From positions 127,527 to 191,526 of the forward strand of contig NZ_CP045687.1 of assembly GCF_009601705.1 (NCBI RefSeq): 64,000 nt of DNA. Direction: 5' to 3'. The notes under the pieces are model-generated. The model was given only the letters and a program-made list of their open reading frames with translations. It was not told where the DNA came from and did no database searches. The DNA is from Sulfolobus sp. E5-1-F (GTDB taxonomy: Archaea > Thermoproteota > Thermoprotei_A > Sulfolobales > Sulfolobaceae). Below are positions 8,124 to 63,245 of this stretch, in pieces; positions within the stretch are counted from its first letter, which is position 1, and each line of letters starts with the position of its first letter. The translations under genes and the position numbers were made by a program.

Positions 8124-8212
8124 ATGTGAGTTATTTTATATTAAAAATAAAAAAGTATATGTGACTGAGTGTGGTCAACAATTTTATGCATTTGAGATAT
8201 TTGCATTTATTA

Positions 8213-8867
8213 TCACTCCCTATCCACTAAATATACTTGAGTGTAAAGAATGTTGTAGATTAGGAAGAAGGTCGAGAGCCAACTCGTAATCGTTAACCTA
8301 TTTGAACTTTAGGTGAAGCGAAAGCCCATAGAGGAGAGCCTATGCTTTAATGTCCTTTTTCAGCGTAATCCCTCCTACCAAACGTAACCCACTTGTGCCC
8401 AACATTAAACCAGTCAAAGGCATTATAAGCTGGTAAACCATCATGCAAGTAAACCACTCGATCAATCCTCTTAAAGTACCTACTCGCAATTTCCTCAATC
8501 CCCCTCATGTTAACTATTAACACGTGAAAACCACTCCTCAAGCCATGAAGAAAGGAATAGCCTTTGTCACAACATCCCTAATGATCCAAACGTAATAATA
8601 ATTACCCCTAACGCAAACAACCTTAGTCTCGTCAATGCCGTAAAGACCACTCAAGGACACTACATACTTAACCCTACCAAGCCTCTTGTAATAGTAAAGC
8701 AAAGTGGAGTGTGGTAGCGTTGTCCTCCAAGAGGATAAGCCAGCTAGATAACTCGCTAAGCCTAACGCGACCTCCTCCCTAACGTGAAATCTTGGCTTAA
8801 GATTAATATACTCCATTAGGATTAAAATAACTTGGGTGAGCACGGGAATACTCCACTTGTTAGGCAT
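8213..8867 (-). pseudogene. IS6-type transposase, frameshifted
   Basis: Read from the ATG at 8867. The first piece (to 8538) carries a helical N-terminal domain and the first catalytic Asp in GIDETKV followed by YYYVWIIRDV. A one-base shift near 8540 moves to a second piece with HDGLPAYNAFDW (second Asp) and a Glu-containing RRDYAEKGH, ending in a stop near 8347. After another shift the frame continues with KHRLSSMGF, is interrupted by a stop at 8309-8311, and ends with TSWLSTFFLIYNIL, the typical C-terminal YN motif region. At least three lesions make it inactive; it could only move if a related transposase acts in trans. Confidence 0.8.
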
Positions 8868-8900
8868 GTGCTCACCAATAAAAATCCCGTGCTCACCCAA
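8832..8900 (-). repeat. 16-bp inverted repeat around the IS6 transposase start
   Basis: Perfect 16-bp arms at 8832-8847 and 8885-8900 enclose a 37-nt loop containing the ATG at 8867-8865; a third partial copy of the motif (GTGCTCACC at about 8868-8876) sits in the loop. In RNA the start codon would be presented in or near a strong hairpin. The same arrangement occurs in the unrelated IS1-type element at 61903-61961. Confidence 0.75.
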
Positions 8901-9039
8901 AAAGGTATTACGCTAAATAAAAACAATTTATTTCTATAATAGAAATAACTTATACGATTAATTTCAAATTAAGTAAATTGTTGACCACACTCATGTGACT
9001 TACGGAAAACCTTTTATATAATAGGTTTTTATAAATATT

Positions 9040-61684: not shown

Positions 61685-61902
61685 AGGAACCATCATACTT
61701 GTGATTTTTTCTTTATTCTTGGAAATAACTAGCATAATTAATTATCTTATTTTCGTTGGAATATGGGGGAGTGTTCTCATGCAGTCATCTTATTCGATAT
61801 CTAGCTGTAAAATTATATCAAGTTAGTAATTTTTATAATTACTCATCTTGATCTAGAGGTAACCGCGAAACTAGAACGTACAAAATAACTTAAGAAACTT
61901 TA

Positions 61903-61961
61903 TGTGCGAGAACTGCGAGTTTTTTGAGGGTAAGCGACATGGATCTCGCAGTTCTCGCACA
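61903..61961 (+). repeat. 17-bp inverted repeat around the IS1 transposase start codon
   Basis: Perfect 17-bp arms at 61903-61919 and 61945-61961 with a 25-nt loop that contains the ATG at 61939-61941. In mRNA the stem would place the start codon in the loop next to the stem base. The right arm is coding (it specifies residues LAVLAQ), so base pairing and protein sequence are both constrained. Confidence 0.8.
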
Positions 61962-62889
61962 ACTAATACTTTTGATTTTAAGAAATTTAAATCTTAAGCC
62001 AAGAAAGTACGCGCTAAAGGATATTGCACTAGCGTTAGCAGCATACTCCTTGGGAGTTCAGATCACGAAAATAGGAATCCCACCATCAACACTATACTAC
62101 TACTTGAGGAAAGTGGGAATAAGAAGGAGAAGGGAGAAGAGACCAACATGCCCATCATGCAACTCCAACAGAGTAGTCAAGAACGGCTCATCCAGAGGGA
62201 AGGCAAAGTATAGATGCAAAGTGTGTGGAAGAACGTTTTACAACACGTTGAAGCACAGAATGAATAAGGAACAAAGGGAGAGAATCTTAAAGGAGTACTT
62301 GAACAGGATGAGCATGAGGGCAATATCAAGAGTTGAGGGAAAGCCATTAACTACGATCTACAGCCTAGTGAAGAGGATTGGAGCAAAGGCCTTCACGAGC
62401 TTAATAATATTGAGGGGGCAACTCAAGAGTTTCGTGGCCAAGTCTACAGTGTTTGACGAGTTCTGGACTTATCTTCGTGTTAGGCATGGGAAGGTTAGAG
62501 CGGATCTCTGGATTTGGACTGCTCTTTCTGATGGGATACCTTTCTACGAGTCTGGGGACAGAAGTTATGGGACTTTCCGTCTCCTCTTGAGCTGGTTACC
62601 TAGGAGTGGGGTAAATTATACTGATCACTACTGTGTTTATCAAGTTCTTGATAAGCGCGTAGCTAGTAAGAAGTACACTTACATTGTGGAGAGTCATAAT
62701 TCTCGGTGTAGGTCTCATCTTGCTAGGTTAGCTAGGGATACTAGGGCTGTTAATAGGAGTCAGAGGATGGTGGAATATAGCTTGGCCTTGTTGAACGTTA
62801 TGTATCCTCACGTGTTCTCAAGGGAGATAACGCCCTTAAACGAGACTTACTTGAGGGCAGTACAGTATATTAGAGATAATCTGATATAA
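61939..62889 (+). CDS. IS1-family transposase (single frame)
   Basis: 316 residues from the ATG at 61939; a TTG at 61924 in the same frame is an alternative. N-terminal helix region and LPPSTLYYYLRKVG-like HTH (here IPPSTLYYYLRKVG). A zinc ribbon CPSCNSNRVVKNGSS plus CKVCGRTF, an HTH (MSMRAISRVEGKPLTTIYSL) and the DDE core follow: Asp/Glu in VFDEFWTYLRV, Asp in VNYTDHYCVYQVL, Glu in YIVESHNSRCRSHLARLARD. Unlike bacterial IS1, InsA and InsB are in one frame with no frameshift. It appears functional. Confidence 0.92.
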   Translation: MDLAVLAQLILLILRNLNLKPRKYALKDIALALAAYSLGVQITKIGIPPSTLYYYLRKVGIRRRREKRPTCPSCNSNRVVKNGSSRGKAKYRCKVCGRTFYNTLKHRMNKEQRERILKEYLNRMSMRAISRVEGKPLTTIYSLVKRIGAKAFTSLIILRGQLKSFVAKSTVFDEFWTYLRVRHGKVRADLWIWTALSDGIPFYESGDRSYGTFRLLLSWLPRSGVNYTDHYCVYQVLDKRVASKKYTYIVESHNSRCRSHLARLARDTRAVNRSQRMVEYSLALLNVMYPHVFSREITPLNETYLRAVQYIRDNLI

Positions 62890-63245
62890 TTTTACTAACA
62901 GTTCTCGAATAAGATGACTGCATGAGAACACTCCCGAATATGGTATTCCACATTACTTATTATAATTGCTTGGTTCAAGAGTTATACTTACTGTATCTCG
63001 GAAAAAGAGATAATAATAAAATCACTATTAGGTAAAAAAATAATCAAAGTAGAAAATTTTAAAGAAAGCTTTGTATCACAAGGACCTATAGCAAAGAGAT
63101 TGAAGTGTGGCTCAGTTTACATCATTTTAAATAACGGAAAGACCGCGATCTTATACGATATAAAAAATCCAGAAAAATTCTTCGAAAAAATTCAGAATTC
63201 CCGCCCTTAAATCATCACGTTGTCAGTACCTAGCCATAACATCAC

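Follow-up and report, generated by a model that had tools for sequence, protein, structure and literature searches.

Two insertion sequence (IS) families in the window, the 64,000-nucleotide stretch of DNA analysed here, open their transposase genes with a hairpin of the same design, in which complementary arms flank the start codon and lead into a homologous N-terminal protein domain. We put slightly better than even odds (about 0.52) on the reading that this start-region hairpin silences read-through transcripts and was inherited by both families as part of one module.

Start-codon hairpins in an IS6-type and an IS1-type element

The IS6-type hairpin lies on the minus strand. Its arms are complementary at all 16 positions (8832–8847 and 8885–8900) around a loop of 37 nt that contains the minus-strand ATG (8867–8865), as a preliminary description of this DNA had reported. 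The same description called the element dead, and several stops do interrupt its transposase frame; the 8-bp target duplication (8159–8166 and 8993–9000) is intact. In the lists below, features are assigned from the sequence, the arms also from covariation, and whole elements from their ends and their copies.

8159–8166: target site duplication ATGTGACT, first copy
8167–8992, minus strand: broken ISC774-type (archaeal IS6) IS of 826 bp, with terminal repeats that begin GAGTGTGGTCAACAATTT
8661–8846, minus strand: N-terminal domain of the IS6-type transposase that is shared with the IS1-type protein (PVLTQ...LGRVKYV)
8832–8847, minus strand: right arm TCCCGTGCTCACCCAA, in the codons for IPVLTQ
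8848–8884, minus strand: loop, with SD-like GGTGA at 8876–8872 and ATG at 8867–8865
8885–8900, minus strand: left (upstream) arm TTGGGTGAGCACGGGA
8899–8906, minus strand: TATA-like ACCTTTTT, a putative promoter element that abuts or slightly overlaps the left arm
8993–9000: target site duplication ATGTGACT, second copy

The counterpart of this TATA-like sequence in other IS6-type copies is CTTTTTA, ATTTAA or CTTATAAA.

On the plus strand, an IS1-type element, which we take from its length and terminal repeats to be ISC1173-like, has an open transposase frame and carries the similar start hairpin to which the IS6-type one had been compared. Here the arms match at 17 of 17 positions (61903–61919 and 61945–61961), and the ATG at 61939 sits in a loop of 25 nt.

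61759–61766 and 62936–62943: target duplication GAATATGG
61767–62935, plus strand: IS1-type (ISC1173-like) IS of 1169 bp, with terminal repeats GGGAGTGTTCTCATGCAG
61893–61902, plus strand: BRE/TATA-like element AGAAACTTTA, a putative promoter element that abuts the left arm
61903–61919, plus strand: left arm TGTGCGAGAACTGCGAG
61920–61944, plus strand: loop, with SD-like TGAGG at 61925–61929 and ATG at 61939–61941
61945–61961, plus strand: right arm CTCGCAGTTCTCGCACA, in the codons for LAVLAQ
61942–62118, plus strand: shared N-terminal domain, placed as a prefix ahead of the zinc ribbon and the IS1 catalytic part

Both elements are multi-copy in the 2.54-Mb genome. Apart from their start hairpins, no perfect repeat in the 64-kb window reaches 16 bp with a short loop. 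The feature exceeds chance by a wide margin: across 864 kb of the genome (window included), 13 perfect repeats have arms of 12 bp or more, a loop of 8–60 and a G+C content of at least 35%, and each of the 13 is a copy of one hairpin or the other.

The idea that the arms were copied from the terminal repeats is rejected, as the two show no resemblance. The tips of the terminal repeats (8167/8992 and 61767/62935) have GAGTGT in common between the families and differ in the remainder, possibly because both transposases bind their ends through the shared N-terminal domain. Six other IS6-like matches in the family were checked as further carriers, and in none of the six is the start codon flanked by a strong stem. 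A transposase-like gene, L212, has a perfect 14-bp repeat (TGGGGAGATGCTGG) about 90–29 nt upstream of its frame start and wholly outside the frame; no 14-bp stem of this kind was found in L201, the protein of which is near-identical to that of L212.

Conservation and covariation of the stem

In relatives' genomes the letters of the arms change but the pairing is kept: standard pairs fill 95.2% of pair cells in 37 IS1-type sequences, where compensation by double changes is seen at 10 of 17 pairs (57 cells), and 94.1% in 34 IS6-type sequences, where it is seen at 7 of 13 pairs (30 cells); these covariation counts are inflated by kinship among the copies. Sliding the partners by one to three columns leaves 28–55% paired, and whether judged by pairing, by double changes or by covariation score, at most one of 500 shuffles equals the real sequences. 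The number of further pair types is unexceptional against 500 shuffles. Three IS1 arm variants occur within this genome, each pairing largely with itself, and at IS1 arm positions 9–13 a single genome holds several different sequences, for the most part with the matching change on the opposite arm. Where the frame is open, mismatches number at most two in 30 of 31 IS6-type copies and at most three in 25 of 26 IS1-type copies; the corresponding fractions in broken copies are 18 of 42 and 23 of 32, a contrast that is no proof of selection because old copies decay throughout.

Covariation specific to RNA was sought as an excess of G-U pairs, and none was seen: over distinct IS1 arm haplotypes, G-U pairs (6) are not favoured over A-C mismatches (16). 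A constraint purely on the sense RNA should make G-U the commoner of the two, and in view of this missing preference, action through RNA is something that we infer. The loop is inverted between the arms in 2 of 113 copies of clear orientation, both in broken elements and one in each family (L021, IS6-type, at about C1:2351330; L044, IS1-type, at about C1:826751). These inversions point to exchange or template switching between the arms, which suggests that part of the paired change may have arisen by template switching.

A homologous N-terminal domain in two transposase families

In their catalytic parts the two transposases belong to different families, IS6 and IS1, as had been proposed. An intact IS6-type copy from the same genome (L051) scores 311.9 bits against NCBIfam NF033588 (ISC774/IS6; cut-off 200) and is a member of that family, and the open part of the broken window copy alone scores 151.4 bits, below the cut-off. 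Against the bacterial IS6/IS26 model NCBIfam NF033587 the ISC774-type copy reaches 22.1 bits, short of the cut-off of 125, a low score that is consistent with the separation of archaeal from bacterial IS6 members proposed in PMC6807381. The window IS1-type protein exceeds the cut-offs of both NCBIfam NF033558 (IS1; 119.9 bits, cut-off 100) and Pfam PF03400 (33.2, cut-off 24.1). The IS1 model begins at residue 76 of this protein, in the zinc ribbon, and a 59-aa prefix lies outside it.

The window IS1 protein and the intact same-genome IS6 copy align at their N-termini over 59 residues with 39% identity (E = 2e-12). The preliminary description had seen in this region a leader of ten residues shared by unrelated elements. 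The likeness is indeed significant, but it extends over 59 residues, and the word unrelated suits the catalytic parts and not the N-terminal domains, which, judged from their sequences, are homologous. The ISC774 model also matches residues 15–67 of the IS1-type protein at 3.7e-9. The domain belongs to the ISC774-type IS6 model itself but is an extra prefix in the IS1-type protein, so that transfer from IS6-type to IS1-type would be the simpler direction. Further copies of each family also carry the hairpin, and in both families it is found together with the N-terminal region.

A tree of the domain, built on only 61 columns, shows one split between IS6 and IS1 with support of 100/97, which points to one ancient transfer of the module with no sign of repeated exchange. 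Module exchange and convergent regulation had both been offered as origins of the likeness; what stands is one old transfer, as convergence is ruled out by the homology of the N-terminal domains and repeated exchange by the single, strongly supported split in these 61 columns. Of 229 genomes of the class, 22 carry the domain; all 22 belong to the same taxonomic family as the window, which we take from its IS content and from a control hit in Sulfolobus acidocaldarius to be Sulfolobaceae, and none of the genomes outside this family has the domain. No solved structure matches it by sequence. A scan of genome contigs with the IS1 protein gave a single match, to a bacterial zinc ribbon.

Layout and predicted silencing of read-through transcripts

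Both families share a common order of TATA-like box, left arm, loop (with an SD-like sequence and usually the start codon) and right arm, and in both the TATA-like box abuts the left arm or lies within about 4 nt of it. An archaeal TATA box usually lies about 26 nt from the transcript start. With this spacing, transcription is predicted to begin inside the loop, near 8876 in the IS6-type window copy, and the left arm would therefore be transcribed only in read-through from outside; its absence from the element's own mRNA is predicted from the position of the TATA-like box only. SD matches of at least 5 nt occur in 28 of 37 and 14 of 29 loops, against 10 and 6 expected. Loops measure 23–28 nt in IS1-type copies and mostly 36–45 nt in IS6-type copies, and the stem encloses the SD-like sequence and usually the start codon, with exceptions in some IS6 lineages. 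ACG or ATC replaces the loop ATG in IS6-type L081, L085–L087, L053 and L058, L130, where translation may begin at a non-standard start, at an upstream TTG or GTG, or at the downstream ATG of MEYINLKP where present.

The predicted read-through RNA is more stable than the predicted own RNA in all 20 copies folded, at both 37 and 78 °C, and the two window hairpins have folding z values of −6.6 and −6.9. The own-promoter RNA self-folds in several copies (−18.3 kcal/mol in the window copy) because part of the left arm is repeated a short way ahead of the ATG. In the IS6-type window element this proximal second copy (GGTGAGCAC) lies at 8868–8876, directly before the ATG, with equivalents in relatives, and the right arm can pair with it too. 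An apparent deletion in L022 and L057 has fused the left arm with this second copy.

Taken together, layout and folding suggest that the hairpin likely protects the element from transcription of neighbouring genes. Transcription from the element's own promoter would begin in the loop, past the left arm, and the resulting mRNA, unable to form the full hairpin, would be translated. A transcript arriving from a neighbouring gene would contain both arms and form a stem of 13–17 bp, which would lock the ribosome-binding site and the first codons, so that little transposase is made. The module, comprising the TATA box, left arm, transcript start, ribosome-binding site, start codon, right arm and 59-aa domain, would have reached two IS families of one archaeal family by one ancient transfer. 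We hold a broader version only tentatively, as it is more probably wrong than right: that the palindrome acts at the DNA level, spanning promoter and start codon and kept perfect by arm-to-arm copying, as a transferable expression-control module passed between transposon families with an N-terminal, probably DNA-binding, domain, and that it is the first such archaeal read-through protection to be described.

Alternative explanations

The arms may instead form a DNA operator, with half-sites for a repressor, perhaps the transposase N-terminal domain itself, that blocks the polymerase between the TATA box and the transcript start. The left arm lies just downstream of the TATA-like box, which is a usual position for archaeal repressors, the domain common to both families is a natural candidate binder, and the absence of a G-U preference in the arms agrees with a role in DNA. 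A protein that reads sequence would, however, not need IS1 arm positions 9–13 to vary within one genome and still be largely matched on the opposite arm, and the differing loop lengths mean that the half-sites do not lie on one helical face. The arms are also unlike the terminal repeats. A conserved half-site at fixed spacing was not found, since both arm cores and loop lengths vary, and an operator, which fits poorly with these differences, is in our estimation unlikely.

Somewhat less likely still is that the pairing reflects a mutation process, in which template switching or conversion copies one arm onto the other and paired changes need little or no structural selection. The inverted loops, one per family, are direct evidence of exchange between arms, and double changes are far more numerous than G-U intermediates. 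Such a process leaves unexplained why the repeat occurs only here. Also against it, the position of the repeat relative to the TATA box, ribosome-binding site and domain has been kept in two families at about 40% identity, and many broken copies have lost the stem. The same two inversions (L021 and L044) could be read as an invertible DNA switch, in which inversion of the start-codon loop would switch transposase expression on and off. If such switching were frequent, inverted loops should be common in working copies, but both of the inverted copies among the 113 are broken and working copies were not found in both orientations; on this frequency the switch is rejected as very improbable. Silencing of read-through transcripts remains the reading that we prefer.

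Comparison with known systems

Genomes of this archaeal family are rich in IS, and little was found on the self-limitation of archaeal transposons besides antisense RNAs. A hairpin conserved in its pairing in two IS families is a concrete, testable control element, and the many arm variants that nature supplies amount to a ready set of compensatory mutants. Control region and protein domain appear to have moved together between transposon families. For ISC774- or ISC1173-like elements, no description of either the start hairpin or the N-terminal domain common to both was found in the portions of the literature searched, the IS6 literature included, where ISC774 or ISC735 is named in one paper and ISC1173 in none; as the search took in few subscription papers, this does not prove the feature new. 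The hairpin is probably an archaeal read-through safeguard with a known bacterial counterpart and no archaeal report found.

In bacterial IS10, IS50/Tn5 and IS200, translation is limited by a stem close to the start of the transposase gene, as is predicted here. The 5' hairpins of IS10 and IS50 hide the ribosome-binding site and act on read-through RNA, and the ribosome-binding-site hairpin of IS200 is comparable to the archaeal start hairpin. Unlike these, the hairpins described here are archaeal, hold the start codon in the loop and not in the stem, have a left arm that abuts a TATA-like box, and are common to two IS families along with a protein domain. The elements themselves are members of ISC774 (archaeal IS6) and IS1 by protein models. 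In ISPpu9 of Pseudomonas putida, transposase expression depends on the structure of the mRNA 5' region, and two small RNAs are involved there (PMC8450116). Within the same group as the window, antisense RNAs directed against the transposase genes of Sulfolobus solfataricus are another proposed means of transposon silencing (PMC3674436); an antisense RNA is a separate RNA, whereas the control element described here is part of the transposase region itself.
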